64,000 nt of DNA from Aromatoleum petrolei (GTDB lineage: Bacteria > Pseudomonadota > Gammaproteobacteria > Burkholderiales > Rhodocyclaceae), in assembly GCF_017894385.1 (NCBI RefSeq), contig NZ_CP059560.1, positions 1,240,001 through 1,304,000 of the forward strand, given 5' to 3'. The position numbers were made by a program, and so were the translations under genes. This document shows positions 21,026 through 63,886 of this stretch, piece after piece (positions within the stretch are counted from its first letter, which is position 1; every line of letters starts with the position of its first letter). The notes below the pieces were generated by a model that was given only the letters and a program-made list of their open reading frames with translations, did not search any database and was not told where the DNA came from.

Positions 21026-22246
<1,221 letters not shown>

Positions 22247-34964: not shown

Positions 34965-36692
34965 TTACTTCAGGTCGAAACCGGTGAGCGGGTGGATCTG
35001 GAAGTTACCGCCGTTGATGTAGCCATATACCTCATAGATCTTGTCGGTCTTGTTGAGTCCAGCGACGTCGCCGTTAGCATCGAGGATGACTTTTCCGTCT
35101 CCATCCACTGCGGGCTGGACGCCCTTGTAGATAGTGATGCGATAGAAGTCCGCACAACCACAGTCGGCGATGTTCTCGGTGACCGGCGGATCCGCGAACG
35201 GATTGTTGCCGGAACCAGCCGGCGGACAGTTCGCGCCCGGAATCGGCGTGTTCGGATTCTCGCTACCCGGCTCACCCAGATCCTCGATATGCACCTGGAA
35301 CCAGTGATAGGTCGGAACTGGCTGATTCGGACGCTGCCCCTTCGGCTCGGGGATCACATCATCGATCCCGTCGAAGATCACGCCGTCGCTCGCGGTGAAG
35401 GTGTTGTTGCTGATATTGCTGAAGGTCCCCACACCAACGAAGTCGATCTGCTTGTTCGGCGCCGGACGTGCCTGTTCGCACCACCCCTCGTCGGTACAGC
35501 GAATCTCGTCGATCTGCGTGCCGGCCGGAGCATTCTTTCCGCCATGGAACGCAAAGCTCAGGCCACTCGGGCTGCTGTGGTTGTTATGCTCCCACTGGCC
35601 CTTCGGCTGCGGTGGCAGAGCCGTATTGGCACCGGCCTGCCCGCCGAACGAGTAGTCGTAGTAATCGGTCACGGTACTCGATTTCGCAGCTTTGCCTTTC
35701 GGCTTCAGCAGCACGGACGGTTTCAGAGTATCGGCGGCAAATGTCCCGTCCCATCCTCCTTCGGCTACGTTGATCCCTGCCGTGTCATTCCCGCCGCCCG
35801 TCACCCGACAGGCCGACAAGGTCGGGATGAACTCGAAGTTGTTGCTCGCGTCGGTCTGCAGCACCATCTCAGGCCCGCTTACCCCGTTGATTGCCCCGAC
35901 CGTCGCAGCATCGACACCGCCATCCGTCTCGAAATTTTTCGAAGGATTGGTCTCCAAATACGGAACGTTCTGCTGCGTCGTGAACTGCAGTATCGTTCCT
36001 GCCGCGACCCCTTCCTTGAAGAACGCGGGGTCGGCGTATTGCACCAACACCGCGATGCTCTGCGACCCCTGCCCCTTGACGGTGAGGGTCCCGCCCCAGT
36101 TATCCGTACCGAACTGATCGAGAATCCCAGAGCTGAAGTCGGTGCCGAAGTTGCCATTGATCTCGACCACGACCCCGCGCAGTATCTGCGTCCCGTCGCG
36201 ATAGCCGAGGCCCGTCAGTGACGCTCCCTTGCTACCGGCACCATCGGTCAGGTCGTCATAGTACAAATAGAAGAAGTTGCTCTGACCTGCCGCGCCGTCG
36301 AACGCGAAGGTTGCGATCGATCCATCGGAATTGGTCGTCACCGCCTCGCCCGTACCCCCGACGTAGGTCAATTCGAACGTCGAGTTGAATCCGCTCGGGT
36401 CCGGATAGGGATCGCCACCGGGATTCAACAGCCCATTCAGGGCGCCGTGAACAAATGTCTGGACCGGCTTGGTGTTGCTTACGCCAAGCGGAATGGCAGG
36501 ACCACCGTCGGGCGCTTCGGTAACCAGGGCATTGCCATTGCCCCAGTCGAACGCGCTGACCGAAAGCGGCTGGATAGGACCATTACCGTCCGGATCGAAA
36601 AGGATGAGGCTTGCGGCTCCCGCGCTCCCCATCGCCGCGAACAACGGTACCAGGGCGAACGCGCCCTGACCCAGTATCTTGCGAAGTTTCAT
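34965..36692 (-). CDS. Large exported protein, paralogue of the PEP-CTERM neighbour without the sorting tag
   Basis: 575 residues with a signal peptide (LRKILGQGAFALVPLFAAMGSAGA). Residues ~27-285 align in outline with the next gene: LILFDPDGNG vs VLFDADGTD, SAFDWGNGNAL, FVHGALNGL, YYDDLTDG, LTGLGYRDGTQILRGVV, and the end motif GVSGPEMVLQTDASNNFE. At the point where the paralogue has its VPEP tag, this protein continues for ~290 residues with ACRVTGGGNDTAGINV, several cysteines (ANCPPAG, ADCGCADF) and the end VYGYINGGNFQIHP. No PEP-CTERM or anchor is present. Cell-surface or released protein; function unknown. Confidence 0.75.
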   Translation of the reverse strand: MKLRKILGQGAFALVPLFAAMGSAGAASLILFDPDGNGPIQPLSVSAFDWGNGNALVTEAPDGGPAIPLGVSNTKPVQTFVHGALNGLLNPGGDPYPDPSGFNSTFELTYVGGTGEAVTTNSDGSIATFAFDGAAGQSNFFYLYYDDLTDGAGSKGASLTGLGYRDGTQILRGVVVEINGNFGTDFSSGILDQFGTDNWGGTLTVKGQGSQSIAVLVQYADPAFFKEGVAAGTILQFTTQQNVPYLETNPSKNFETDGGVDAATVGAINGVSGPEMVLQTDASNNFEFIPTLSACRVTGGGNDTAGINVAEGGWDGTFAADTLKPSVLLKPKGKAAKSSTVTDYYDYSFGGQAGANTALPPQPKGQWEHNNHSSPSGLSFAFHGGKNAPAGTQIDEIRCTDEGWCEQARPAPNKQIDFVGVGTFSNISNNTFTASDGVIFDGIDDVIPEPKGQRPNQPVPTYHWFQVHIEDLGEPGSENPNTPIPGANCPPAGSGNNPFADPPVTENIADCGCADFYRITIYKGVQPAVDGDGKVILDANGDVAGLNKTDKIYEVYGYINGGNFQIHPLTGFDLK

Positions 36693-36817: not shown

Positions 36818-37939
36818 TCATGCGGACCTTCTGCGCAGCGACAAGCGGCCGGCACCGAGCATCACGAGGGTCAGACCCAGCAGCGCGAGACTCGAGGGCT
36901 CGGGCACCGTGGTGCGGAACGAGTTGCTGGCGTCCGTCTCGAGGATGCAGTCCGGCCCATTGACGCAGTTGATCAATCCAAGGTCGATGCCGCCACCGGC
37001 CAAGGTCAGCGAACCGCCGACAAGATCGGTATCGAACGACTGCGAGGGGTTGGTGTCATCGACGGGCAGGTTGTTGCGGGTCGTGAAGAACAGATCCTGA
37101 GACAGCGCGGTAATCAGCGACTTGAAGAAGTTGAAGTCCTGGAAGTCGACATCGACTTCGATGGAGGTCGACCCTTCGCCATAGGCGGTCAGTTGCCCGG
37201 CCCACTGATCACCGTTCGCGCTCTGGTCGAGCAGGCGGTCGGCGTTGACCGGATCGCCGGTGGCAGGATCGATCGCCCCCTCTTCGCCCGGATCATAGGT
37301 TCCATTTCCGTTCGTATCGACGAAGAACCAGTTCGAGGTGAAGCTGCCGGCGCTCGTGAATTGCGAAACGGTACCTGACAGAATCAGCGTGCCGTCGTCG
37401 AAGCCGAGACCGGTGAGCGAGCTCGCCTGCGTCCCGTCGTTAATCACGTCGTCGTAATAGACCGCGAAGAAATTCGTGGTGCCGCTCGTATCCAGGTTGA
37501 GATTGATCGTGCTGGTGAATTGATAGACGTCGTCGGTTGGATCAAGATTTCCGCCGTCGCTAACCAGTTCGATCGTCGGCGCGCCCGAAAGCGTCGCAGT
37601 TTCCGCAAAGCCCGCGATCGCTGTGATCTCCCACGTAGTATTCATGTTCGCCGGATCGCCAACAGGGTCACCATCCGTGTTAGTGAAGCCGTCCAGCACC
37701 GCGTGGGTATACAGATTGAATGACGAACCAGTTGTGGGAATCCCCTGATCGATGAGGGCCGATGATACGGCCCAGTCGAATGAGCCATAGGTCTGCGTGA
37801 GGGCGTTGGCGTCCGTGCCATCGGCATCGAACAGGACGGGGTCCGACTGTGCAAAGGCGGGCATACCCCACCCCAGAGCCAGGGCAAGGCCTGCCGCAAT
37901 CGCACTGGAACGAACGCGCCGCGGAAGTTTGTTGGTCAT
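36818..37939 (-). CDS. PEP-CTERM sorting-domain exported protein
   Basis: 373 residues from ATG 37939, with an ideal AAGGAGT box. Signal peptide to ~28 (GLALALGWGMPAFA). The mature part is rich in Asp/Thr/Gly with no cysteines until CVNGPDC near the end. The last 29 residues form a PEP-CTERM tag: VPEP, hydrophobic helix SLALLGLTLVMLGAGRL, and basic end RRRSA; this is read by exosortase/XrtA. A sigma-54 promoter lies upstream. Function of this protein class is mostly unknown, some promote flocculation. Gap of 125 nt to the downstream paralogue, no terminator seen between them. Confidence 0.88.
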   Translation of the reverse strand: MTNKLPRRVRSSAIAAGLALALGWGMPAFAQSDPVLFDADGTDANALTQTYGSFDWAVSSALIDQGIPTTGSSFNLYTHAVLDGFTNTDGDPVGDPANMNTTWEITAIAGFAETATLSGAPTIELVSDGGNLDPTDDVYQFTSTINLNLDTSGTTNFFAVYYDDVINDGTQASSLTGLGFDDGTLILSGTVSQFTSAGSFTSNWFFVDTNGNGTYDPGEEGAIDPATGDPVNADRLLDQSANGDQWAGQLTAYGEGSTSIEVDVDFQDFNFFKSLITALSQDLFFTTRNNLPVDDTNPSQSFDTDLVGGSLTLAGGGIDLGLINCVNGPDCILETDASNSFRTTVPEPSSLALLGLTLVMLGAGRLSLRRRSA

Positions 37940-38007
37940 GGCGGACTCCTTTTGTAGGGCTTGCCGATTCGGCACAAGGGCGATTCAACGCCCGACGCCC
38001 AACTAGG

Positions 38008-38023
38008 AGCAAATCCCAGGCCA
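38008..38023 (-). promoter_or_regulatory. Sigma-54 (RpoN) promoter of the PEP-CTERM gene
   Basis: Minus-strand TGGCCTGGGATTTGCT has the invariant GG and GC separated by exactly 10 nt and matches TGGCACG-N4-TTGCW at 10 of 12 positions. The start would be near 37998, leaving a ~58-nt leader. AT-rich DNA lies just upstream (38024-38095), as usual for activator/IHF-dependent promoters. PrsR, encoded at 59.0-60.4 kb, is a sigma-54 activator and the natural candidate regulator. Confidence 0.72.
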
Positions 38024-38166
38024 GAATTTTTTATTCTTAAAAATCAATGGCCTGAGAATCAAAAATGCAAAGCCGGCGATTCACTGTAAAAGAATTCGAC
38101 ACTCCCTGCAGAAAGGCCCTGTCGGGTTCCGCCGCGACAGCCATGGTCGCCTGGAGACCGCTCCGG

Positions 38167-38826
38167 TCACGCTCGCAGGCGACGTGCCGGGTTCCCTCCC
38201 CAAACCTCGCCAGCCCGAACGCGCGTCCCCTTGGTGACGACAGAGCCGGCCGCGATGATCGCGCCATCCTCAATCGTCACGCCCGACATCACGATCGACT
38301 TCGCTCCGACGGTGACCCTGGAGCCGATGCGAATCCTGGCGTGGGACAGGCGCTCGCCCTCCATCGCATGCGAAAAGAGCACCGCATCATGCCCAATGAT
38401 CGTATTCGAGCCGACATCCGTAAGGATCGGATCGAGGATCACTCCCGCGCTGTAGGTATCCTTGCCCAACCGGGCCCCCAAGGCCAGGTAGATGACACGC
38501 ATGAGCGGCACTGGCAGCACATGGTTGCGGGTGATCGGATAGAACAGCAGCAGGTAGAACAACACATACACGTTGTAGGCGAACTCATCACGCGAGCCCG
38601 GCGCGATGTCTCCCTCCCGCAAGGGCATCACGGCGAGAAACAGGCGGTGAACAGCGATCGCAAATACGTAGAACACGAGCACGAAAACGCCGCAAAGGGC
38701 CACGCCCCTGAAATCGCCCAGTGAGAGCCCACCAGCCAGCAGCGACGTCGTGAATACAGCCCCGGCCGCCGCAATCGATGCAAGCATCAGAAAAACGAGA
38801 ATCTGCGTAACTCCGATCTTGCGCAT
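38167..38826 (-). CDS. Membrane-linked hexapeptide-repeat acyltransferase
   Basis: 219 residues from ATG 38826 (AAGGAG box, 9 nt away). Residues ~5-75 contain two membrane helices (ILVFLMLASIAAAGAVFTTSL and VALCGVFVLVFYVFAIAVHR). The rest is a left-handed beta helix of LpxA/CysE type: LGKDTYSAGVILDPILTDVGSNTIIGHDAVL, IGSRVTVGAKSIVMSGVTIEDGAIIAAGSVVTKGTRVRAGEVWGGNPARRL. Probably O- or N-acetylates a glycan or lipid near the inner membrane. Same strand and ~120 nt after the nitroreductase gene. Confidence 0.82.
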   Translation of the reverse strand: MRKIGVTQILVFLMLASIAAAGAVFTTSLLAGGLSLGDFRGVALCGVFVLVFYVFAIAVHRLFLAVMPLREGDIAPGSRDEFAYNVYVLFYLLLFYPITRNHVLPVPLMRVIYLALGARLGKDTYSAGVILDPILTDVGSNTIIGHDAVLFSHAMEGERLSHARIRIGSRVTVGAKSIVMSGVTIEDGAIIAAGSVVTKGTRVRAGEVWGGNPARRLRA

Positions 38827-38949
38827 TCGGAGGGACTCCTTACGAGAGATGCACACCGGCTCGCATCATCCGCGAGCCCGGACACGTTTCGGCCGCCATG
38901 TACCCGGTCGACCTGCACGGGACTACCGACCAGATCCGGATAATCGCGG

Positions 38950-40026
38950 TCAAGACCCGACCATCAGTTCGTCGAGATCCCGGCGAGTCGAGCGCGAAGC
39001 AGGCTGGCTCGAGTGGCCGACTCGACAAAAGAAGGCGTACGAATCGGCTGCGCCAAAGCCGGTAATCGCATCGAAACGGCGAGCCAGCAGACGCACCGCA
39101 TCATCGATCCCGGGCTTCACGGACACCTGGCGCCCCGCCTGTGCATACCAGCGAAAGATCACCGGAGTCATCTGCGGCTGCAGGTAAAGACCGAGCGCGG
39201 CGATGGTCAACCAGAGCCGCTGGACGGCAACACCGGCCCTGACATGGTCGCCGAGCGTCGTCGGCGGCCTCTCGGGACGAAGCAGCACATGCGCGGCGCA
39301 CGCAAACGCGGGAATGAAATCGAGCTGGACGCGGGGGGCAACGGTGCCAAGCAAGTACCGATTGAAGAACTCGACACGCGCCCAGTCCTTCATCACCCAC
39401 CGCATGAGTCGCGCCGTCATCGGATCGACCCCGACCGCCTCTTCGGGGATTCGATCCTTGCTGAAGCGGGCGCCCCATTCGATGATTTGTCTATGCACCG
39501 CATACGCCTCGGGACAAGTCAGGCGCACGTGCGCGCTATCCCACAGCAACTTGGCCACCGCGAACCGGCCGGCCAACGACTCGAAGAGCCGCACCTGAAA
39601 GCCGGGACCGGGCGCCGCGAGAAGGCGGTCACGCTGTTCCGCGCTGAGACGTTTCGTGCGCATCGGGCGGCGCTGAACCACCCGCGTCTCGATGTGCGCC
39701 AGGAGAGGGTCAGGGACAAGCCCGGGCACCTCGCTCAACTCGACGTCATAGATTGGCGCAATATCGGGGCAGCCGGCACGTACGGACCATCGCGCTTCGA
39801 GGCCAAAACCGGTTGCTGCAATCCGCAGGGTCTCGAGCAAGGCGCCGTGTGCAATGAGACTGGGCCGGCCGTCGAAGTCATAGAGACACCACTCGCGCGT
39901 GTCGAAACCATGGATCGCGATGTGACTCCCGGAGACAATTTCAAAACGCCATGGCTGAGTATTGTCGCCGCTCGGCGCCCAGCGCGCCCGGTCGAGAATC
40001 TTGAGCAACACTTCCCGCTCAGCCAC
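38950..40026 (-). CDS. Nitroreductase-family flavoprotein
   Basis: 358 residues from a GTG at 40026 with AAGGGG 7 nt upstream, overlapping the ThiF gene by 8 nt; this coupling decides the start. N-terminal FMN-binding motif RARWAPSGDNTQPWRFEIV (residues 13-31), later GDHVRAGVAVQRLWLTIAALGLYLQPQMTPVIF, which is the usual second flavin region. It is longer than typical nitroreductases (~200 residues), with an inserted middle part (180-270). By family it performs FMN-dependent two-electron redox on a small molecule. Substrate unknown. Confidence 0.8.
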   Translation of the reverse strand: MAEREVLLKILDRARWAPSGDNTQPWRFEIVSGSHIAIHGFDTREWCLYDFDGRPSLIAHGALLETLRIAATGFGLEARWSVRAGCPDIAPIYDVELSEVPGLVPDPLLAHIETRVVQRRPMRTKRLSAEQRDRLLAAPGPGFQVRLFESLAGRFAVAKLLWDSAHVRLTCPEAYAVHRQIIEWGARFSKDRIPEEAVGVDPMTARLMRWVMKDWARVEFFNRYLLGTVAPRVQLDFIPAFACAAHVLLRPERPPTTLGDHVRAGVAVQRLWLTIAALGLYLQPQMTPVIFRWYAQAGRQVSVKPGIDDAVRLLARRFDAITGFGAADSYAFFCRVGHSSQPASRSTRRDLDELMVGS

Positions 40027-40909
40027 GCTGCGCCCCTTGCTCGCGCATGCGGCGCAAGTGCTTCCGGGCGATCCACAGCCCCAATCGCTGCAGCGGGTTT
40101 CGATTGCCACCGGGACGCCAGGTACGGACCATGCGCCCCCGGTACGAGTCAAACTGATAGCCCCATGGTGCAGCATGAACCTTTCCTCGCCCGAGGAGGA
40201 TTTTCAGTGACTCGGCGGCCGTGGCACCAGCGCACAACTGGCACGCGATGATGGTGGACGGGCCTCGCCGCTCGGCGAGATTGACCCGCGACGGATCTGC
40301 CAGATAGGAACGCTGCAGCATGCCCGGCGACAGTCCCAGCAGGAAGCGGATCGACATTTCCTCCTCGTCGCAGCCTTCGAGGCAAAAATACTCCTCGAAA
40401 CTCATCTGCCCCGGCAGGAACACCAGCACCGCGGTTCCCATCCCAAGCGGTGCGGCCGTCACCGCAGGAATTCCCAGTCGGTGGCATGCGGTAAAGGTGG
40501 CACGCCGAATGCCGAAGGAGAAGAAGTCCAGTCCGTCGACATAGAGATCGACGTCCTTGAGGAACTCATCGAGGTTGGCATCCGACAAGCCTGCGGGGAA
40601 ACGACGCACGTCGAGTTCGGGGTTGATGTCGAGCGCCATCTCCGCCAGCACGTCCACCTTTGGCCGCCCGACCGATGACATCATTGCACCGGCCTGGCGA
40701 TTGAAGTTGACGAGGTCAAAAGTGTCGAAATCGGCGACATTGAACGCCCCGACACCGAGCCGGGCGAGAGTCAGCAGATGAACGCCTCCAACTCCGCCCA
40801 TCCCGGCGATCGCGATGCGCTTGCCACGCAACGCGGACTGCTCGCCCGTAGTTACCCAACCAATGTTGCGGGCGAACGCAGCATCGTAATCGAATAATTT
40901 CTTCACCAT
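40019..40909 (-). CDS. ThiF/MoeB/E1-like adenylyltransferase
   Basis: 296 residues from ATG 40909 (GAGAGGGG box). The nucleotide-binding loop GMGGVGG is at 36-42; VADFDTFDLVNFNRQAG supplies the Asp, Asn and Arg of the ATP site, and GRPKVDV the lysine. Cysteine pairs CLEGC and CQLC could bind zinc. The family adenylates a carboxylate, such as a sulfur-carrier C-terminus or a peptide/acyl acid. No ThiS-like partner or YcaO gene is nearby. It overlaps the nitroreductase gene, and so works in one operon with it. Confidence 0.85.
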   Translation of the reverse strand: MVKKLFDYDAAFARNIGWVTTGEQSALRGKRIAIAGMGGVGGVHLLTLARLGVGAFNVADFDTFDLVNFNRQAGAMMSSVGRPKVDVLAEMALDINPELDVRRFPAGLSDANLDEFLKDVDLYVDGLDFFSFGIRRATFTACHRLGIPAVTAAPLGMGTAVLVFLPGQMSFEEYFCLEGCDEEEMSIRFLLGLSPGMLQRSYLADPSRVNLAERRGPSTIIACQLCAGATAAESLKILLGRGKVHAAPWGYQFDSYRGRMVRTWRPGGNRNPLQRLGLWIARKHLRRMREQGAQRG

Positions 40910-41145
40910 ACCCCTCTCCCTACCCGTCATTCATCATAGTGAATTCGCACGGCGAGAGAAACCGCGAGATGGCGCATCTTCGGAGCCCCTCGCGGATTTT
41001 TGCACACCCACTGTGCGCCCAAGTTGGACTATGATTACTCGGTGAAAGTCACTGCACCCATGCGTTGCAGGAGACGCTCAAGCCCCGTGTCCAGGCCCCG
41101 TCCGGCCATCCGGTCATATCCCCCCTCCCCGACAAGGAGACCGCG

Positions 41146-41913
41146 TTGCTCCTGTTCGACCGATTCAATCTCGGCCACGGATTCAGGAAGTACTTCGAGA
41201 TCCATCCGGCAACCGACGACGCCCTGCGCGACTCCGTATACCGCATTCGGCACGAGGTATATTGCGAGGAACTCGGTTTCGAGCCCGTGCGTCCGGATCG
41301 GCGCGAAACGGACGAGTACGACGCGCACAGCATGCATTGCCTGTTGCGGACGAGTTCGGAGCCGATCAGACCCGTCGGATGCACGCGCGTGGTGCTGACC
41401 AGGGCGGAGGAACCGGATTACCCGCTTCCGTTCGAGCGGACCTGCGCTGCAACCCTTGACCGTTCGATCGTCGACCCGTCCCGTCTGCCCCGCGATCGGA
41501 TTGCCGAAGTGTCCCGACTGGCCGTGCGCTCGACCTACAGGCGCCGGCGTGGCGAGTCGCTGGCCGACGCCCCCATCCATGACGAGGATTTCGGCACCAC
41601 CGTCCATCCCCGCTTCCCGTACATTCCGATCGGTCTGTATCTGGGCGCCATCGCGCTTGCCGAACGCGCCGGGATCGAAACCCTATTCATCCTGACCGAA
41701 CCGCGCCTGGCCTCGCATTTTGCAAAGCTGGGGGTGGATGTGCGCCAGATAGGCGGACCTGTCGAACATCGGGGCACCCGTATTCCATCGATGATGGACG
41801 TTCAAGGCATCATCAAGGACATGCGTTTCCTGCTGAAACCGATGTGGCGGACGATTCGCGAAGAGATTGGGGCTGCCTACGAACAGGTCGCACACGCCGG
41901 ACGCACTGTCTGA
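41146..41913 (+). CDS. PEP-CTERM/exosortase-associated acyltransferase (N-acyl amino acid synthase-like)
   Basis: 255 residues from the TTG at 41146, which has AAGGAGA 6 nt upstream; the open frame begins at another TTG at 41065 without a box. GNAT-fold, autoinducer-synthase-like: RKYFEIHPATDDALRDSVYRIRHEVYCEELGFEP, DEYDAHSMHCLL, PVGCTRVVL, then a central RIAEVSRLAVRSTYRRRR and PYIPIGLYLGAIALAERAGIETLFILTEPRLASHFAKLG. It matches the family defined as exosortase-associated acyltransferase, related to FeeM-type long-chain N-acyl amino acid synthases. Divergent from the ThiF gene across a 236-nt region. Confidence 0.87.
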   Translation: MLLFDRFNLGHGFRKYFEIHPATDDALRDSVYRIRHEVYCEELGFEPVRPDRRETDEYDAHSMHCLLRTSSEPIRPVGCTRVVLTRAEEPDYPLPFERTCAATLDRSIVDPSRLPRDRIAEVSRLAVRSTYRRRRGESLADAPIHDEDFGTTVHPRFPYIPIGLYLGAIALAERAGIETLFILTEPRLASHFAKLGVDVRQIGGPVEHRGTRIPSMMDVQGIIKDMRFLLKPMWRTIREEIGAAYEQVAHAGRTV

Positions 41914-56203: not shown

Positions 56204-58999
56204 TCATAGCTTCTCCTTCAGCGCATTGGCCTCGGCGCGCAGGGGGCTATCCTGCGGCAGGGACTGCAGCAGATGATCCGCCTCCTTCACAGCGTCCTGT
56301 TTGCGCCCAGCTTTCACATATGCTTTCGCGAGATTGAGACGAAGAGTCGGTGCAGTCGGCGCCAGAGAAACCGCCTTGCGAAGGTTATCGATCCCGTTCT
56401 CGGACTGGCCGCTGTCCATTTGCAGCACACCCAGCGTAGCGAGAATATTCGGATCCTCCGGAGCCAACTTTAACGCCCGCTCCGCCAGCCCCATCGCTTT
56501 CGGATCCCTGCGATGGCCCGCGATCCATGCAAGATTATTCAGGACATGGGGCGTATCCGGTTTGAGCTCATCGAGCTTGACATAGAGCCTTTCGGCTTCG
56601 TCGAATCGCCGTGCAGCAAAGGCGCGCTCGGCAAGATAAGTACGCACCCGTACATCCTTTGGCTCCTTCCGCAACCATTCGGAAATCGTCTTCTCGGCAT
56701 CGCCTTGCTTACCCGACTGAACCTGAACCGCATGGAGTTTGATCACCGTCTCGGCCCTCGGCCTGACAGTGAACGATTTGCGGTAAGCGGCAATCGCAGG
56801 CGCGTAGTCCTTTGCGAGGAGGTACAGATCGCCTTCCAGGTTCCACCCCGCAGGCTCCTTGGGCCGTTGCTTTTGTACTGTCTGGGCAACGGCAATCGCC
56901 TCCTTGAGTCGCTGTTTTCCGGCGAGCAATGCGGCGAGTCGCTGCTGTGCGTCGAGGAAATCCGGCTTCAGCCCTAGCGCCCGTCGCAAGGACTGCTCTG
57001 CGGCGGTGGAGTCCTTCGCCAGTTGTTGCGCATCTGCAAGGCGGATCAACGGGGCTGGCAATTTCGGCTGTAAACTCACCTGCTTGCTGAACGCAGTGAC
57101 TGCCTGCTGAAGGTCACCCGCCAGTAGCTGGGCCCGGCCCATCATCTCGTACGCTCGTGGATCATCGGGATGGGCTGCGATGACTTCCTGCACGATCGAG
57201 ATCGCTTTCTTTGCATCTCTCTGCCCCAGGGCCTCCGCGGCGAGCGCCAGCTTCGGAGTGGCTTCCGCTGGCGTCGCACGACTCGCGCGCTCGAGGGTTG
57301 CACGCACCTTGTCCGACGGGGCTCCAGTGGCCTTTTGCAGATTCGCCAACAGAAGGGAAGCCGCGACGTTATCCGGATGCTTGGCGACGACATGCTCGAC
57401 ACGTTCCAGCGCCTCACCGGGCTTTCTTTCCGCGAGATCCAACCGCGCGAGATTGACTACTGCGGGCAGGTAATCGCTCTTGAGCGCCAGTGCCTTCTCA
57501 AACGAGAGCCGCGCACCAGCCATATCCCGTCGGGACAGAGCGATGCCCCCCTGCAACATGTAAGTGCGAGGGTCATCCGGACGTTTTTCCTCGAGCCGCT
57601 GCTGCGCCGCAGCTGCCTTGTCGATTTCACCCTGCCGCAAATGCACCATCACAAGTGCAAAGTCGGCAGCTCCGGAACTCCCCTCGAGCGTCGAGGCCGC
57701 TTCAAGATCGCTCAGGCCTGCAGCGGCATCCCCCTCGAGCATACGCGCCATTCCCAACTGAGTGCGCGCCAGCTCGTCGGACGGGCGAACGGCGACGAGC
57801 CTCTCATACGTCTCCGAGGCCGCATCCAGCTTCCCCTGCGCCAGCTGAATGCGCGCTGCCAGTTGCAGGCTCGCCGGGTCCGGATCCTTTTCGGAAAGCA
57901 GCGGCTTGAGTGTATCCATGGCCTTCTGGGAGTCGCCTGCACCGAGTTCAAGGCGCGCAAGCCCCACCCGCGCGGTTCTGTTCTCGGGTGCTCGACCAAC
58001 CACCATCGCCAGATGTTCACGCGCAAGCACATGCTCGTTCAGGCTGGCGTGGATCAGGCCGGCCAACATCCGCCCTGGCAGGTATTCCGGAGCCAACCGG
58101 ACGGTTTCGGCGATGTGCTCACGGGCCGGAGCCGTCTTGCCGCTGCGGAAATCATTGAGTGCATACAGATAGTGAGTGAGTGGATGTTTCGGCGCGACCT
58201 TCTCCATCGCAGCAAGCCGCTCCGCTGCTTCACTCATGTCTCCTCGCTCAAGCAACAGCGAGATCAGCGCAAAATGATACGCAACAGATGACGGCCTCCC
58301 CTTCACCGCCTCGCGCAGCGCAGCGAGCCCCTCGTCGTCCTGCTTACGGGCAAGCAACACGTTTGCACGCAGAGCATGGGCATCTCCAGCTTCCTCCCCC
58401 GTCGCACCGCGAGCCAACGCAGCCTCGGCCTCTGCAAGCGCCCCGTCGACGTCCCCGCTCAGATATTTCATGCGCCCGAATCCGACCCGCGCAGAAAGGT
58501 CATCCGCGTTGGACTTCAACGCCACCTCGAAGGCCTCGCGCGCCTTGGACGCGTCCTTGCGCTCAAGATAGGCATCCCCGATGCTCCCCCACAGTCGCGC
58601 GTTGGCAACCGGATCCTGAAGCTCTGTCGCCCCGAATTCCTTGATCACCTGCTCAAACTGCCCCATCTGCACCATCGCACGCGCCAGCAGGGGATTTACC
58701 TGTTCGACCGGAACGCCGAGCTCCAGCGCGCGCCGAAACTCCTTTTCCGCAGCAACAGGATTCCCCTGCCTAAGATTCACAGCCCCAAGCAGGTAACGTG
58801 CTTCAGCGAGCTTGGGGTTCTCCTGCAAGGCGTTCTTGAGCTGAATGCTCGCAGCCTGGAGATCATTCTTTGCAAGATAATCGCGCGCCGAACCCACCAT
58901 CGAATCAGGGCTCGCGCCGCAACCGGCAATCAACCCCGAAAAGATTAGAGCCAGCGCAATTTGCCGTTTGGATTGCGGAATTATCATCGGACGGGACAC
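56204..58999 (-). CDS. prsT: PEP-CTERM system TPR-repeat lipoprotein PrsT
   Basis: 931 residues from the GTG at 58999, which has GGAGAG 7 nt upstream and begins 1 nt after the prsR stop; the ATG at 58987 is too far from that box. Lipoprotein signal with LIAGCGAS. The rest is an almost continuous array of about 20 TPR repeats (for example SAAEKEFRRALELGV, NARLWGSIGDAYLERKDASKAREAF, ALRLNLAKAYVKAG), ending SPLRAEANALKEKL. Found with exosortase loci; presumed scaffold for EPS export and protein sorting at the outer membrane. Confidence 0.93.
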   Translation of the reverse strand: MSRPMIIPQSKRQIALALIFSGLIAGCGASPDSMVGSARDYLAKNDLQAASIQLKNALQENPKLAEARYLLGAVNLRQGNPVAAEKEFRRALELGVPVEQVNPLLARAMVQMGQFEQVIKEFGATELQDPVANARLWGSIGDAYLERKDASKAREAFEVALKSNADDLSARVGFGRMKYLSGDVDGALAEAEAALARGATGEEAGDAHALRANVLLARKQDDEGLAALREAVKGRPSSVAYHFALISLLLERGDMSEAAERLAAMEKVAPKHPLTHYLYALNDFRSGKTAPAREHIAETVRLAPEYLPGRMLAGLIHASLNEHVLAREHLAMVVGRAPENRTARVGLARLELGAGDSQKAMDTLKPLLSEKDPDPASLQLAARIQLAQGKLDAASETYERLVAVRPSDELARTQLGMARMLEGDAAAGLSDLEAASTLEGSSGAADFALVMVHLRQGEIDKAAAAQQRLEEKRPDDPRTYMLQGGIALSRRDMAGARLSFEKALALKSDYLPAVVNLARLDLAERKPGEALERVEHVVAKHPDNVAASLLLANLQKATGAPSDKVRATLERASRATPAEATPKLALAAEALGQRDAKKAISIVQEVIAAHPDDPRAYEMMGRAQLLAGDLQQAVTAFSKQVSLQPKLPAPLIRLADAQQLAKDSTAAEQSLRRALGLKPDFLDAQQRLAALLAGKQRLKEAIAVAQTVQKQRPKEPAGWNLEGDLYLLAKDYAPAIAAYRKSFTVRPRAETVIKLHAVQVQSGKQGDAEKTISEWLRKEPKDVRVRTYLAERAFAARRFDEAERLYVKLDELKPDTPHVLNNLAWIAGHRRDPKAMGLAERALKLAPEDPNILATLGVLQMDSGQSENGIDNLRKAVSLAPTAPTLRLNLAKAYVKAGRKQDAVKEADHLLQSLPQDSPLRAEANALKEKL

Positions 59000-59000
59000 G

Positions 59001-60359
59001 TCAACTCTCCTTCTTGAATCCAAAGCGGTTCATCAAGTCATACAAGGAGGGCCTGCTGATCCCCAGAACATCGGCAGCACGCGCGATATTGCCGTTCGTT
59101 CTTGCCAAGGCACGGATCACCGCCCGCCGCTCCGCCTCGTCCCTGACATGACGCAGATTGAGTTCCAGCAAGTCCGATTCAGCTGCATCGAGGCCGAGAT
59201 CCTCCGCCGTGATCCGGTTCGATTCCGCCATGATCACCGCGCGCTTCAGGCAGTTCTCCAATTCACGCACATTTCCCGGCCAGGGATGCGTCTCGATCGC
59301 CGCAAGCGCGTCCTCACCGAGATGCATGGCCCCCCGGGCATTCTCCTTCGCGAAGCGTTGCACGAACGCATGTGCCAGCAGCACGGCATCACCATCTCGC
59401 TCCCGGAGAGGAGGAATGTCGATGACAATCTCGGCGAGCCGGTAGTAAAGATCTTCGCGAAAATGGCCAGCCTGTATTTGCGCCTTCAAATCCCTGTGCG
59501 TCGCACACACCACGCGCACATCAACCGGAATCTCCTCACGCCCCCCGATGCGTTCGACCACTCTTTCCTGCAGGAAGCGGAGCAGTTTCGCCTGCAGCGC
59601 CATCGGCAGGTCCCCTATTTCGTCAAGAAAGAAGGTACCCTTGTGCGCGGTTTCGATTTTTCCCGGCGTCAGCTTCGCCGCCCCGGTGAAAGCCCCCTTC
59701 TCGTAGCCAAACAATTCGCTTTCCAGAAGATTCTCCGGAATCGCGGCGCAGTTGATCGCCAAGAAGCGCTCCTTGGAGCGCGACGACAACGCGTGCAAGG
59801 CGCGCGCCAGAATTTCCTTCCCTGTCCCGCTTGCGCCAAGCAGCGCCACGGTGACATTTGCCGACGCCACCCTTTCCACTGTTCGGCATACCTTCAACAT
59901 CCCGGGATCCCGGGTGATGACTCCAGAAAGCGGGCTGGACTGCTGGGCCTGCAGACGATGATTCTCTGCCTGAAGATCGTGGAGCCGAAATGCACGATCA
60001 ATCGTCAGCGCGAGCAATTCCGGTTCAAAAGGTTTGCCGAAGAAATCGTAGGCACCCATTGCCACGGCCCGGACCGCATTCTCCCGATCATGCTGGCCGG
60101 TCAGGACAATCACCTTCGTCTCGGGCGCCAGCACCAGCATCTCCCCGAGGAGTCGGAAGCCCTCGCCGACGTCATCCGGACTCGGGGGCAAGCCAAGGTC
60201 CATTGTGACCACCGCGGGCTCATAACGACGCAACTGGGCGAGAGCGCTCTCTCTATCGTCGGCGACAACGGTCTCGAAAGAATCGAACGCCCATCGCATC
60301 TGCTTCTGCAGCGCCGGATCATCCTCCACAACCAGAAGCGTTCGTCTCTTATCGTTCAT
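59001..60359 (-). CDS. prsR: PEP-CTERM system sigma-54 response regulator PrsR
   Basis: 452 residues. Receiver domain 1-120 with phospho-Asp in AVVTMDLGLPPSPDD; AAA+ sigma-54 domain 145-385 with Walker A LGASGTGKEIL, GAFTGA in GYEKGAFTGAAKL, and Walker B FFLDEIGDLP. C-terminal Fis-type helix-turn-helix RALARTNGNIARAADVLGISRPSLYDLMNRFG. Activates RpoN promoters of PEP-CTERM genes. Overlaps prsK by 4 nt. Confidence 0.95.
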   Translation of the reverse strand: MNDKRRTLLVVEDDPALQKQMRWAFDSFETVVADDRESALAQLRRYEPAVVTMDLGLPPSPDDVGEGFRLLGEMLVLAPETKVIVLTGQHDRENAVRAVAMGAYDFFGKPFEPELLALTIDRAFRLHDLQAENHRLQAQQSSPLSGVITRDPGMLKVCRTVERVASANVTVALLGASGTGKEILARALHALSSRSKERFLAINCAAIPENLLESELFGYEKGAFTGAAKLTPGKIETAHKGTFFLDEIGDLPMALQAKLLRFLQERVVERIGGREEIPVDVRVVCATHRDLKAQIQAGHFREDLYYRLAEIVIDIPPLRERDGDAVLLAHAFVQRFAKENARGAMHLGEDALAAIETHPWPGNVRELENCLKRAVIMAESNRITAEDLGLDAAESDLLELNLRHVRDEAERRAVIRALARTNGNIARAADVLGISRPSLYDLMNRFGFKKES

Positions 60360-62437
60360 GATCCCTGAGTCATCACCGCACTGTTCATATCGTCCCGCGC
60401 TTCGCGGGCAACCACTGGCAGCGTGATCGACACGCGCGTCCCCTCCCCGGGTTCGCTATCGACGGCAATGCTGCCCCCGATCTCACGAATGTACTGCTGA
60501 GCCTCGAATGCGCCGATCCCCATGCCTCCCGTCTTGCTGGTCTGGAACGGGCGGAACAATTGCTCGCGGACGAACTCCTTCGTCATCCCACATCCGTTGT
60601 CCTCAACACTCAACACGGCCGAACCATCGCTCGCTGGTTTGATCCTTACGGCCACCCTACCATCGTCTCTCGTCGCCTCCAGCGCATTCTGCAACACATG
60701 GCCAATGACACGCTCAAGCCGCTCCGGGTGCGCAATCACCTCGACCATCCCGAGTTCGCCTGGGTCAAACTCTATGGCCGGACGCTGGTGGCGTTTCGCC
60801 ATCCTCAGACGTTCGATAAGAGCGGCGATCTCTACTCGTCTCGGCGGGTCGATTGAGCGCTTTTCCTGCAACTGCGCCATCAACGCGCGCATTCTCGACT
60901 CGACATTCGCCACGGTCTCCAGCATGTCTTCCTGAAACGCCGGGTTATGCTTGTGCCGTTCCGCGTTCTTCAACATCAAGGACAGCTGCGCAACAAGATT
61001 CTTCAGATCGTGAACCACGAAGGCGGACATTCGATTGAACGAATCGAACTTCCTCGACTCGATCAGGGCCTCAACCGCCTGCATGCGAGACAGATAACTT
61101 GCTGCCTGCGCCTGCGCCGTCTTCAGCAGATCAAGCACCTCCCAATTCACATCCACCGGCGTCCTCGGCGCGCTAAGCAGGACAAATCCGACGAGGACAC
61201 CCCCGGATTTCAGAGGCAGAACCAGCCACGCACTTGGAATCGCCGACAACCATGCTGGAAGCGCCAAAGACGAATAGCTAGTCGAACCCGAGCGGTATTC
61301 CTCAAGGTTGATCACCCACTCGCGTTCAGCCAGAAATTGGCAGAACGAACTGTCTTCGTCTTCCGTCACCGCAATCGCCGGATGATTGAGCCGCGATTGG
61401 ACGTGATAGCGAGGACCACCCGACTCCCGAAGCCAAAGCGCTCCACCAGGGCTCTCCACAAGATCGCATAAGCCCTTGATCACCGATTCACCCAAATCGA
61501 GCGTACCGTCGGCCGACGACAGAGCCTGCGTAAACCGCAACCACTCGCTCCGGTAGTCGTAACGGTATGGAAACAGGTGCTTGTTGAGGAAAACACGCAA
61601 CCTTGCCCGCTGAGCCCCCGACACAAGGAAAACGCTCAAGAGCAGCAGGCCGGCAAAAAACAAGGTCAACTGGAGGGCACGGCCCCAATCGCCGCCGAAG
61701 TAACGCACGTAATACCCGGCAGCTGCGATGACCAGCAGGTAGGCCCCCGACAACGCCAAGGCCGTCGAATGGAACACCGCATCTCTCGAGACCGTTATAC
61801 GCAGCGCCCAATCCGGATTTCGAGCAGCCGACACAGCAACGAGCGGCAGCGTCAACGAATGGGCAATGCCCCGCACAGCCCAGAGGTCTGCATCCAGGTG
61901 ACCGAACAGGAAGCCATCCGCGAACAAGTACAGCTCGAAGACATACCCTGCCGAAAGCGCCAGACAAAGAGGTTTCAATGCCCAACGCGATTCCGGCGGC
62001 ACCGACCGGAAGAGTTGCTCGACCAGCACCAAACCCAGCACCGCGCTTGCAAGAAAACTGCCCAAGTGCAAGGTGGTCTGCGACAGGAAACGCAGCTCCA
62101 AGCCGAGTACACCGAGGATCTGACCGACCGCGACCACCGCTGCAGCGACAATCGCCCAACGCACCACGCGTGCGCTAACGGCCAGCAGTAGAATGATGAT
62201 AAACGCCAACCAGCTGGCTTGACGAACAATGTCGGCGGACCAGGCCAATACAAGCACGGCGGTCGAGGGGCTCCAGACCACAAAGCCGTTCGCAAGCGCC
62301 CACAACGTACTCGCCCCGACAGCCAACAGAAGGGCGGCACCACGCGGCTGCTTGCGCCAGCCAAGAAGCAGGTAAATAAAGAACAGCGTGTAGGCACCGC
62401 ACGCGATGCCGTACGCCACACCAGCCGACTCTGACAA
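60356..62437 (-). CDS. prsK: PEP-CTERM system sensor histidine kinase PrsK
   Basis: 693 residues from a TTG at 62437 with AGGGG 6 nt upstream. N-terminal ~270 residues contain about eight membrane helices (for example FIIILLLAVSARVVRW, LQLTLFFAGLLLLSVFLVS), a GAF-like sensor at ~300-440, then the kinase core with phospho-His in AFVVHDLKNLVAQLSLML, N-box NALEATRDD, D-box DNGCGM, G-box GGMGIGAFEA. Partner of PrsR by overlap and order. Signal unknown. Confidence 0.94.
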   Translation of the reverse strand: MSESAGVAYGIACGAYTLFFIYLLLGWRKQPRGAALLLAVGASTLWALANGFVVWSPSTAVLVLAWSADIVRQASWLAFIIILLLAVSARVVRWAIVAAAVVAVGQILGVLGLELRFLSQTTLHLGSFLASAVLGLVLVEQLFRSVPPESRWALKPLCLALSAGYVFELYLFADGFLFGHLDADLWAVRGIAHSLTLPLVAVSAARNPDWALRITVSRDAVFHSTALALSGAYLLVIAAAGYYVRYFGGDWGRALQLTLFFAGLLLLSVFLVSGAQRARLRVFLNKHLFPYRYDYRSEWLRFTQALSSADGTLDLGESVIKGLCDLVESPGGALWLRESGGPRYHVQSRLNHPAIAVTEDEDSSFCQFLAEREWVINLEEYRSGSTSYSSLALPAWLSAIPSAWLVLPLKSGGVLVGFVLLSAPRTPVDVNWEVLDLLKTAQAQAASYLSRMQAVEALIESRKFDSFNRMSAFVVHDLKNLVAQLSLMLKNAERHKHNPAFQEDMLETVANVESRMRALMAQLQEKRSIDPPRRVEIAALIERLRMAKRHQRPAIEFDPGELGMVEVIAHPERLERVIGHVLQNALEATRDDGRVAVRIKPASDGSAVLSVEDNGCGMTKEFVREQLFRPFQTSKTGGMGIGAFEAQQYIREIGGSIAVDSEPGEGTRVSITLPVVAREARDDMNSAVMTQGS

Positions 62438-62500: not shown

Positions 62501-63886
62501 TCAGTGCGCGCCCTCACAAGTCAGGACGACCCGGACCGTCTCGAACAGCACCAGGATATCGAGAGCCAGGTTGTGGTTCTTCACGTAGTACAGGTCGTAC
62601 TGCAACTTCTGAATCGCGTCATCGACCGAAGCACCATACTGGTAACGAACCTGCGCCCAACCCGTGACTCCTGGCTTCACGCTATGACGCACAGAGTAGA
62701 AGGGAATCTCGCGCGTCAGCTGATCGACGAAATACGGGCGCTCCGGCCGCGGCCCGACCAAACTCATCTCGCCCGACAGCACGTTCAACAATTGCGGCAG
62801 TTCGTCGATACGAAAACGCCGGATGACGTGACCGACACGCGTAACCCGGTCGTCCCCTGACTGAGCCCACCGCGGCCTGCCATCGCCTTCGGCGTCTTGC
62901 CTCATGCTACGGAACTTGATCACTCTGAATATTCGTCCACGCCGTCCCACCCGCTCCTGCCGGTACAAGACAGGACCGCCATCCTCCAGCAGGATGAGAC
63001 ACGCCGTGACGAGCATGACGGGCAGAGCGAACATCAACAAAATCGCCGATGCAAGGACATCAAAACATCGCTTGATGGTCCTACGCACCACCCCTTGATG
63101 AAAACCTTCGCCGTAGATCAGCCAGCTCGCCTTCAGTGAACCGATCGGCACCTGCCCGTGGGTACGTTCGAAGAATGAGGACAGGTCGAGAACCTTGACG
63201 CCCCGGAGCTTGCAGTCAAGCAACTCCCGTATCGGAAGGACCCCGCCTCTGCGTTCGCGCACCGCCACAATCACTTCGCTGACATGGAGCCGCCTGACCG
63301 TGTCAAGAAGATTTCCGTCTTCCGGAAGAATCCGTTCCGGGTTCACGACTGGCGTTTCCTCGCCCACCGGACGGTAAAAACCGACGAGATCCCGTCCAAC
63401 CCCTTGAGCATCCAGAGAACGTGCAACCGCGTCTGCTTCAGTGCCTGTTCCGATTATCAGCACCCGTGGGTCAAAGGCGGACGCCGAGCCACGTCGGTTC
63501 GCCAAACCCCGCATGACGAGCAGCCCACCCAATAGTAGAACGATGGAAACCTGCACTGCCTCGGACTGGAAATACCCCCAAGGCAGAATGGCAAACACCG
63601 CGAATGCCACCACGACACTCACGACAACCGACACCACTATGCGGGAAGCAGTACTCCGGCCTCCACCATCCAGAGCTCTCGCGCGGTACAGCCCCAAGGC
63701 GCCATTGAGCAGGATCATCAGCAGGGCGAAGAGCAATGCGGAAGGGACGACCAACCGCCACTCCACTTGGGAGCCACGTGCCGGGAGGGCGGTCACAACG
63801 AGAACGACGACGAACAGAATCGACGCATCGAACGCGATCTGCTGCAACGCGTGCGACGGCACATACTGCTTGAACACCTTGAACAT
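62501..63886 (-). CDS. epsB: EpsB-type undecaprenyl-phosphate sugar transferase (EPS initiation)
   Basis: 461 residues, transferring the first sugar phosphate to undecaprenyl phosphate. N-terminal membrane helices (~20-130), a CoA-binding-like Rossmann part at ~140-245 (DPRVLIIGTGTEADAVARSLDAQG), and C-terminal sugar-transferase domain: KRCFDVLASAILLMFALPVMLV, GRRGRIFRVIKFRSMRQDAEG, RRFRIDELPQLLNVLSGEMSLVGPRPERP, GVTGWAQVRYQYGAS. ATG with GGGGGGAGG box. It sits 63 nt ahead of prsK, the usual place in exosortase EPS loci. The operon may begin beyond the right edge. Confidence 0.92.
   Translation of the reverse strand: MFKVFKQYVPSHALQQIAFDASILFVVVLVVTALPARGSQVEWRLVVPSALLFALLMILLNGALGLYRARALDGGGRSTASRIVVSVVVSVVVAFAVFAILPWGYFQSEAVQVSIVLLLGGLLVMRGLANRRGSASAFDPRVLIIGTGTEADAVARSLDAQGVGRDLVGFYRPVGEETPVVNPERILPEDGNLLDTVRRLHVSEVIVAVRERRGGVLPIRELLDCKLRGVKVLDLSSFFERTHGQVPIGSLKASWLIYGEGFHQGVVRRTIKRCFDVLASAILLMFALPVMLVTACLILLEDGGPVLYRQERVGRRGRIFRVIKFRSMRQDAEGDGRPRWAQSGDDRVTRVGHVIRRFRIDELPQLLNVLSGEMSLVGPRPERPYFVDQLTREIPFYSVRHSVKPGVTGWAQVRYQYGASVDDAIQKLQYDLYYVKNHNLALDILVLFETVRVVLTCEGAH

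Follow-up and report, generated by a model that had tools for sequence, protein, structure and literature searches.

A candidate acyl-oxazolone locus in an exosortase setting in Aromatoleum petrolei

A 64,000-nt stretch of the Aromatoleum petrolei genome (contig NZ_CP059560.1, positions 1,240,001 to 1,304,000), referred to here as the window, was analysed with a focus on one locus at positions 38167-41913. Its four genes encode an N-acyl amino acid synthase (NAS), a ThiF/E1-like enzyme, a nitroreductase-fold oxidase and a hexapeptide acyltransferase. The locus, which has an exosortase setting, likely carries an acyl-oxazolone pathway akin to OxzAB, TyzACB and TrzAS.

Gene arrangement

The locus comprises the following features:
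41146..41913, plus strand: NAS, TIGR03694, with a FeeM/acyl-homoserine lactone (AHL) synthase fold (TIGR03694, 258 bits, cut-off 112; Pfam FeeM narrowly passed, 28.1 bits, cut-off 27)
40910..41145, no strand: putative divergent promoter region, with TATGAT-like boxes at 40933-40938 (minus strand, ThiF side) and 41030-41035 (plus strand, NAS side)
40019..40909, minus strand: ThiF/E1-like cyclase, PRK08223/NF006077 (NCBIfam PRK08223, 472 bits, cut-off 266)
38950..40026, minus strand: nitroreductase-fold flavin-dependent oxidase (FDO), a predicted desaturase (best PDB match of its model 2ymv, Acg)
38167..38826, minus strand: membrane-anchored hexapeptide (left-handed beta-helix) acyltransferase, encoded third in the operon

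The minus-strand genes run in the order ThiF, nitroreductase, hexapeptide acyltransferase, and the NAS gene is divergent from ThiF. ThiF and the nitroreductase gene overlap by exactly 8 nt, GTGGCTGA, with the nitroreductase GTG at 40026 and the ThiF stop ending at 40019. A gap of 123 nt separates the nitroreductase gene from the hexapeptide gene. A first-pass annotation of the sequence had described just this layout, with a PEP-CTERM-type acyltransferase on the opposite strand, and all four genes were confirmed by coordinates and family scores.

The open frame of ThiF has 303 amino acids (aa; 40019-40930, minus strand), and its start is probably the ATG at 40909 rather than the frame start at 40930. 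From its ATG, the hexapeptide protein has 219 aa and a hydrophobic N-terminus; a longer frame of 229 aa begins at GTG 38856. For the NAS, the open frame starts at TTG 41065. The internal TTG 41146 is probably the true start, because AAGGAG precedes it, because its residue is the first one in 11 of 22 aligned NAS homologs and a Met in seven more, and because model confidence is low before it (predicted local distance difference test, pLDDT, below 50 for residues 1-32).

Within the divergent region, AATCATAGTCCA on the NAS side (TATGAT on its strand) was invariant across four aligned Aromatoleum-type intergenic regions, and CTATGATGAA on the ThiF side was kept in three of the four. These conserved strings resemble paired minus-10 boxes, a likeness that is suggestive only. 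A sigma-70 scan gave no site in 40910-41145; the single site that it reported lies away from the divergent region. A sigma-54 (PrsR-type) promoter for the NAS/ThiF region was considered and rejected, as 40910-41145 holds no consensus-like site. Across the whole window, such sites occurred at chance level (29 found, 28.8 expected).

Related loci were collected in two ways. The named loci, found through ThiF and rich in close relatives, are the 80 top-ranking ones among 571 that were confirmed. The sampled loci come from a class sample of 276 genomes, among which 29 have ThiF above the cut-off, 92 an exosortase and 38 a TIGR03694 NAS; minus the window's own genome, this gave 28 ThiF loci. Several of the related loci end at contig ends. 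The nearest named relatives were Aromatoleum evansii and A. tolulyticum, with a ThiF 96 percent identical. The nitroreductase was fused or adjacent to ThiF in 66 of the 80 named relatives, and a TIGR03694-type NAS was within reach of ThiF in 39 (head to head in 35). Because both recur beside ThiF in this way, the arrangement is not due to chance. Against this, neither type of NAS was within reach in 31 of the 80 named loci, several of these stretches ending at contig ends.

Enzyme families and predicted folds

The AlphaFold2 model of the NAS (pLDDT 82.5) had CoA-dependent AHL synthases as its top PDB matches, with FeeM from rank 12 onwards. In the adjoining ThiF protein, R70, K83 and D127 (counted from the GTG at 40906) align with MoeB R73, K86 and D130, which we take to be the catalytic residues. 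All three were invariant in 19 of 19 sequences, including that of the window, and the adenylation residues are thus intact. PDB sequence matches of ThiF included 4d7a and 4yed, both TcdA. TcdA, the tRNA ct6A cyclase, has the ThiF fold and uses ATP to cyclise a carboxylate without a carrier. It differs in acting on tRNA, and the A. petrolei genome has a separate TcdA-like gene.

The nitroreductase scored 115 bits against the NCBIfam Acg family and 109 bits against the Rv1355c family, both below cut-off, and a PDB sequence search returned short, weak matches only. Its model (pLDDT 88.8) matched Acg 2ymv best (E 3e-12; next match 2e-5), so that the model points to an Acg-like FDO next to ThiF. 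In the hexapeptide acyltransferase, H153 and D147 were invariant in 11 of 11 aligned homologs, one distant copy included, as would be expected for an active enzyme.

As a member of the ThiF superfamily, the locus protein might instead activate a ThiS/MoaD-like carrier for cofactor synthesis, its neighbourhood being incidental. The first-pass annotation had named service to a distant ThiS-like carrier as one finding that would overturn its proposal. The evidence goes the other way. In place of a CxxC pair, the locus ThiF has a lone CQLC, and the motif is missing altogether in 3 of the 19 aligned sequences, whereas the MoeB-type proteins of the genome have two CxxC. Two such MoeB-type proteins (above a MoeB cut-off) and the TcdA-like protein (276 bits, under its 304-bit cut-off) are encoded elsewhere in the genome. 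A Gly-Gly C-terminus is the signature of carrier proteins. Among the frames of at least 45 aa in 38100-41150, none ends in Gly-Gly and no ThiS/MoaD partner was found. ThiF and the nitroreductase also share one frame in 11 of the 28 sampled and 9 of the 80 named loci. A molybdopterin or thiamine role was therefore rejected, and we regard carrier activation as very improbable.

Comparison with known pathways

N-acylation, ATP-dependent ring closure and O2-dependent desaturation have been shown to make N-acyl oxazolones (PMC10404671, PMC12856293), and the NAS, ThiF and nitroreductase families have been tied to kyonggic, thalassotalic and stieleriacine acids (PMC12479983). The first-pass annotation knew of no named pathway with these genes; that was mistaken, since oxzAB, tyzACB, trzAS and the kyonggic/stieleriacine clusters have the set. 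A NAS of FeeM/AHL-synthase fold adjoins a ThiF-type cyclase here as in oxz, tyz and trz, and the co-location of NAS, ThiF and nitroreductase is that of kyonggic/stieleriacine-type clusters.

The closest layout is that of tyzACB, which makes tyrazolone (PMC10404671). It has a stand-alone ThiF and a nitroreductase in one operon, with the NAS alongside on the opposite strand, as in the window; the likeness is one of layout and of the three activities proposed. The relatives reported for TyzA are of the same kinds as the matches of the window's NAS model, AHL synthases and FeeM. The window differs from tyzACB in its TIGR03694-type NAS, its exosortase system and its hexapeptide acyltransferase. The three activities are also those of oxzAB from Pseudoalteromonas rubra (PMC10404671, PMC12856293); in the window, ThiF and the nitroreductase have a gene each, unlike in oxzAB and the fused sampled relatives. 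The trzAS system for tryptazolone (PMC12856293) shares the reaction set, and the oxidases of TrzS and the window both resemble Acg most closely among solved structures, but TrzS is fused and the substrate is tryptophan. D217 of TrzS, a conserved Asp of the ThiF adenylation motif, was shown to be necessary (PMC12856293). In the nasY-ThiF-nitroreductase clusters, the same three families are encoded by overlapping or closely spaced genes (PMC12479983). The products of these clusters are known, and those of Stieleria have methyltransferases where the window has a hexapeptide acyltransferase. The locus is thus of the acyl-oxazolone/N-acyl dehydro-amino-acid kind, as a variant with an exosortase setting and a hexapeptide partner.

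From the genes, residues, predicted folds and gene order observed at the locus, an acyl-oxazolone pathway would run as follows. By family and fold, the NAS would acylate the amino group of its amino acid substrate, probably tyrosine or phenylalanine, with acyl-ACP or acyl-CoA as the fatty acyl donor. ThiF, whose homologs are proven elsewhere, would then adenylate this N-acyl amino acid at its free carboxylate, at the expense of ATP. The amide oxygen would close the ring to a 5(4H)-oxazolone, a reaction that would require no sulfur-carrier protein. The nitroreductase-fold FMN oxidase would use O2 to desaturate the alpha-beta bond, giving a conjugated tyrazolone or phenazolone, or a dehydro N-acyl amino acid where the ring opens. 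The membrane hexapeptide enzyme might conceivably pass a short acyl group to the product, or to a partner at the membrane. Judged from homologs, the likely product would be the cyclised, desaturated form of an N-acyl aromatic amino acid, or the dehydro acid left by ring opening. The first-pass annotation had proposed an acyl amino acid modified by N-acylation, carboxyl adenylation and FMN-dependent redox, and families, residues and models suggest that this chemistry was broadly right.

Several points weigh against an oxazolone pathway. We know of no product from A. petrolei or its close relatives. Both NCBIfam scores of the nitroreductase are under their cut-offs, and its FDO subcluster was not assigned. 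No nitroreductase was found in 11 of the 28 sampled ThiF loci, so ThiF can act in another combination. The hexapeptide enzyme falls outside the consulted descriptions of the oxz/tyz/trz and kyonggic/stieleriacine pathways.

The end product could also be an open-chain N-acyl dehydrotyrosine of the kyonggic-acid type. The oxazolone would then be short-lived, acidifying the alpha-hydrogen for the flavin oxidase before it hydrolyses. Duganella, Rugamonas and Janthinobacterium, in which hexapeptide homologs follow the nitroreductase gene, belong to one family with the kyonggic-acid producer Massilia. The clusters for kyonggic, thalassotalic and stieleriacine acids encode all three enzyme families, yet oxazolones had not been observed for them (PMC12479983), which counts both for the open chain and against the ring. 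In TrzS, moreover, cyclisation must come before desaturation; TyzACB, however, allows either order (PMC12856293). Intact oxazolones have been reported from three systems, and in the trz study acid and methanol opened the rings (PMC12856293). Such a work-up destroys oxazolones, so open-chain products may be artefacts, and either ring or open chain may be the native form. An open-chain end product is a real possibility, if not the one that we expect.

Association with the exosortase system

An exosortase was found in 28 of the 29 ThiF genomes of the class sample, versus 64 of the 247 genomes without ThiF (Fisher P 4e-14; P values here take no account of relatedness, and the 29 genomes belong to 22 families). 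In an order sample of 200 genomes (ThiF at E 1e-60, exosortase at E 1e-20), the corresponding numbers were 36 of 38 versus 38 of 162. The two samples overlap in G000 and G091, and G000 was counted in both. The ThiF genomes without an exosortase are G085, G287 and G402. A TIGR03694 NAS was present in 24 of the 29 ThiF genomes and in 14 of the 247 others of the class sample, and 21 of the 29 have a NAS above the cut-off at most 10 kb from ThiF. The tie between NAS and exosortase is looser, with an exosortase in 28 of the 38 NAS genomes versus 64 of the 238 others. At 19 of the 28 sampled and 14 of the 80 named loci, XrtA-system genes are no more than about 8 kb from ThiF.

The tie of the ThiF locus to the exosortase system, which the first-pass annotation had proposed, is therefore real. 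The further suggestion that such a lipid might act as an anchor or a signal in exosortase sorting stays conjectural. That annotation had also suggested a search for co-occurrence of the four families, and here the outcome was divided. ThiF hardly occurs without an exosortase, but the families do not always occur together: 5 of the 29 ThiF genomes have no above-cut-off TIGR03694, and the nitroreductase was undetectable in the 11 sampled loci mentioned above. In two of the five genomes (G130, G210), a weak TIGR03694 match lies near ThiF.

The exosortase of A. petrolei (244 bits) is encoded about 408 kb from the ThiF gene in the same single-contig genome of 5.4 Mb. The window itself holds the following related genes:
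36818..37975, minus strand: PEP-CTERM protein related to PepA (floc), downstream of the operon (PepA model 55.7 bits, cut-off 80; PEP-CTERM motif 21.2, cut-off 20.7)
34965..36692, minus strand: second same-strand protein, 575 aa, no PEP-CTERM motif found
56204..59023, minus strand: PrsT, XrtA/PEP-CTERM system TPR protein (857 bits, cut-off 312)
59001..60359, minus strand: PrsR response regulator (741 bits, cut-off 503)
60356..62437, minus strand: PrsK histidine kinase (871 bits, cut-off 300)
62501..63886, minus strand: EpsB2-type XrtA-system glycosyltransferase TIGR03013 (505 bits, cut-off 393)

PrsT, PrsR, PrsK and EpsB2 lie 14-22 kb from the locus. The NAS, above the curated TIGR03694 cut-off, thus has both an exosortase in its genome and XrtA-system genes nearby, as exosortase-linked NAS genes would. 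Craig, Cherry and Brady, as cited in PMC4897644 and PMC7293339, reportedly tied TIGR03694 NAS genes to PEP-CTERM/exosortase systems in 2011. That exosortase context is shared, and the ThiF, nitroreductase and lipid-transport partners are counted in the present analysis.

The 575-aa protein had no Pfam or NCBIfam match at E 0.01. At related loci, some open reading frames match both this protein and the PEP-CTERM protein. Just upstream of the PEP-CTERM gene is a sigma-54-like site, TGGCCTGGGATTTGCT (38008-38023, minus strand), with two mismatches; window-wide, such matches are at chance level. The site agrees with a reported RpoN-dependent pep gene (PMC9850573). A PEP-CTERM gene is also shared with the stieleriacine cluster of S. 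maiorica, in which it was noted together with putative transporters (PMC7293339).

The word 'exosortase' is absent from the main text of PMC10404671, PMC12856293 and PMC12479983, and 'PEP-CTERM' is absent from the two of these in which it was looked for. Neither the strength of the ThiF-exosortase link nor the lipid-transport neighbours described below were found in the consulted parts of the oxazolone and N-acyl tyrosine literature, and we do not claim a first report.

Variation among related loci

A nitroreductase below 50 bits was counted as absent. By this measure, 12 of the 80 named loci had none, in addition to the 11 sampled ones, and two of the 28 sampled loci have theirs at a distance from ThiF or on the opposite strand. 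Counting both types together, a NAS was present in 21 of the 28 sampled and 49 of the 80 named loci; the other seven sampled loci showed none within reach. At some loci a FeeM-type NAS (PF21926) directly upstream of ThiF takes the place of TIGR03694. The hexapeptide enzyme had homologs in 16 of the 80 named loci, in 14 of them directly after the nitroreductase, and 12 of these 14 are from Duganella, Rugamonas or Janthinobacterium. The class sample had such a homolog in 1 of 28 loci, away from the operon.

A ThiF tree was built from 43 sequences (28 sampled, the window and 14 hand-chosen of the 80 named) plus an outgroup. Loci with and without a nitroreductase were intermixed, with low to high support; one clade of four without it had a support of 0.99. 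Because of this mixing, the oxidase seems to have been lost or gained repeatedly.

Further observations concern single relatives. In A. tolulyticum (L066:8870-11454), the nitroreductase and hexapeptide genes are separated by genes for a GMC oxidoreductase and a short-chain dehydrogenase, possibly for extra tailoring. A SAM methyltransferase is encoded near ThiF at ten loci (L044:7783-8661 and nine others), recalling the methyltransferases of the stieleriacine clusters. For both Aromatoleum diolicum (P0013/P0025) and A. aromaticum (P0018/P0020), two different ThiF homologs were listed, which may be paralogs in one genome.

Lipid-transport genes near ThiF

Clustering of ThiF neighbours brought out pairs of LolC/E-like permeases, an ABC ATPase, a LolA-like protein (PF17131), a DUF1302/SPOR protein and an MMPL/HAE3 exporter. 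Of the 28 sampled loci, 17 had one or more of the LolCE-like, MMPL, LolA-like and DUF1302 proteins close to ThiF, as judged by models built locally. Exporters occurred in 16 of the 28, LolCE-like and MMPL never together, and the LolA-like and DUF1302 proteins occurred together in 15. LolCE-like permease genes were found in 30 of the 80 named loci (two or more in 24, one in six); in several Thauera and Azoarcus relatives they lie between NAS and ThiF. At the tyz locus mmpL9 is adjacent, and its authors raised it as a possible transporter (PMC10404671).

Transport genes were rare in both controls. Among all 14 NAS genomes without ThiF, 1 NAS locus had them (P 9e-4), as did 1 of 20 exosortase loci without ThiF or NAS (P 6e-5); the latter were hand-picked from 59 such genomes and centred on the exosortase gene. 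The positive NAS control, L159, belongs to a family that also has ThiF loci, and the positive exosortase control, L178, has MMPL only. The transport models were built from ThiF-locus members with thresholds that we set, and may be less sensitive in control loci. A test with Pfam PF17131, a model not built from ThiF loci, agreed with them: among 31 matches listed in ThiF genomes, nine lie within 10 kb of ThiF, versus 0.2 expected.

The module models (LolA-like, DUF1302 protein, exporter) found nothing in the 64-kb window. The idea that the window itself holds the transport module was rejected, and the closest LolCE-like protein found in the genome is 28 percent identical. The A. petrolei genome has 12 PF17131 matches. 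No paper of the literature searched had exosortase and LolA together.

Exporter type and oxidase were related, with a nitroreductase in 2 of 10 MMPL loci versus 15 of the 18 other sampled loci. The loci with ThiF and no nitroreductase found nearby (L034, L041, L044, L047, L050, L051, L052, L055, L058, L060 and L061; MMPL exporter in 8 of 11) may use the cyclase in a second way that involves no desaturation. One such use would be activation of the N-acyl amino acid for transfer onto an amine or alcohol of a lipid, polysaccharide or protein, in place of stable ring closure, with the hexapeptide enzyme or the transport proteins handling the adduct. The missing nitroreductase in 11 of 28 sampled loci, including 8 of the 10 that bear MMPL, would fit such a transfer, as would the enrichment of LolA-like carriers at ThiF loci and the opening of oxazolones by alcohols (PMC12856293). 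Yet no acceptor or transfer enzyme was identified, and the window locus has a nitroreductase and no transport module. For A. petrolei we find a transfer role distinctly unlikely, and an acyl-oxazolone pathway remains our preferred reading of the locus.

A side observation concerns a distant part of the window. ARAGORN predicted a second tRNA-Pro(CGG) of 97 nt at 22058-22154 (minus strand), which Rfam did not report at the gathering score; it is probably spurious.

Implications

With an acyl-oxazolone pathway at this locus, the exosortase-linked synthase would gain a concrete next step, the formation of an oxazolone. In the sampled loci, the cyclase travels with lipid-trafficking genes more than the synthase or the exosortase alone does. 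Both a specific product and a route from inner to outer membrane thereby become testable. A bolder proposal, which we rate as rather unlikely in all its parts, is that the N-acyl amino acid of exosortase bacteria is a dedicated surface lipid and not a free signal. ThiF would activate it as an oxazolone, and it would reach the outer membrane by way of an exporter (LolCE-like or MMPL), a LolA-like carrier and an outer-membrane DUF1302 protein. The PEP-CTERM/exopolysaccharide surface would incorporate it there, perhaps when an amine or hydroxyl group of a surface polymer or sorted protein opens the ring. If this were true, the surface lipid would be the missing lipid partner of the exosortase.

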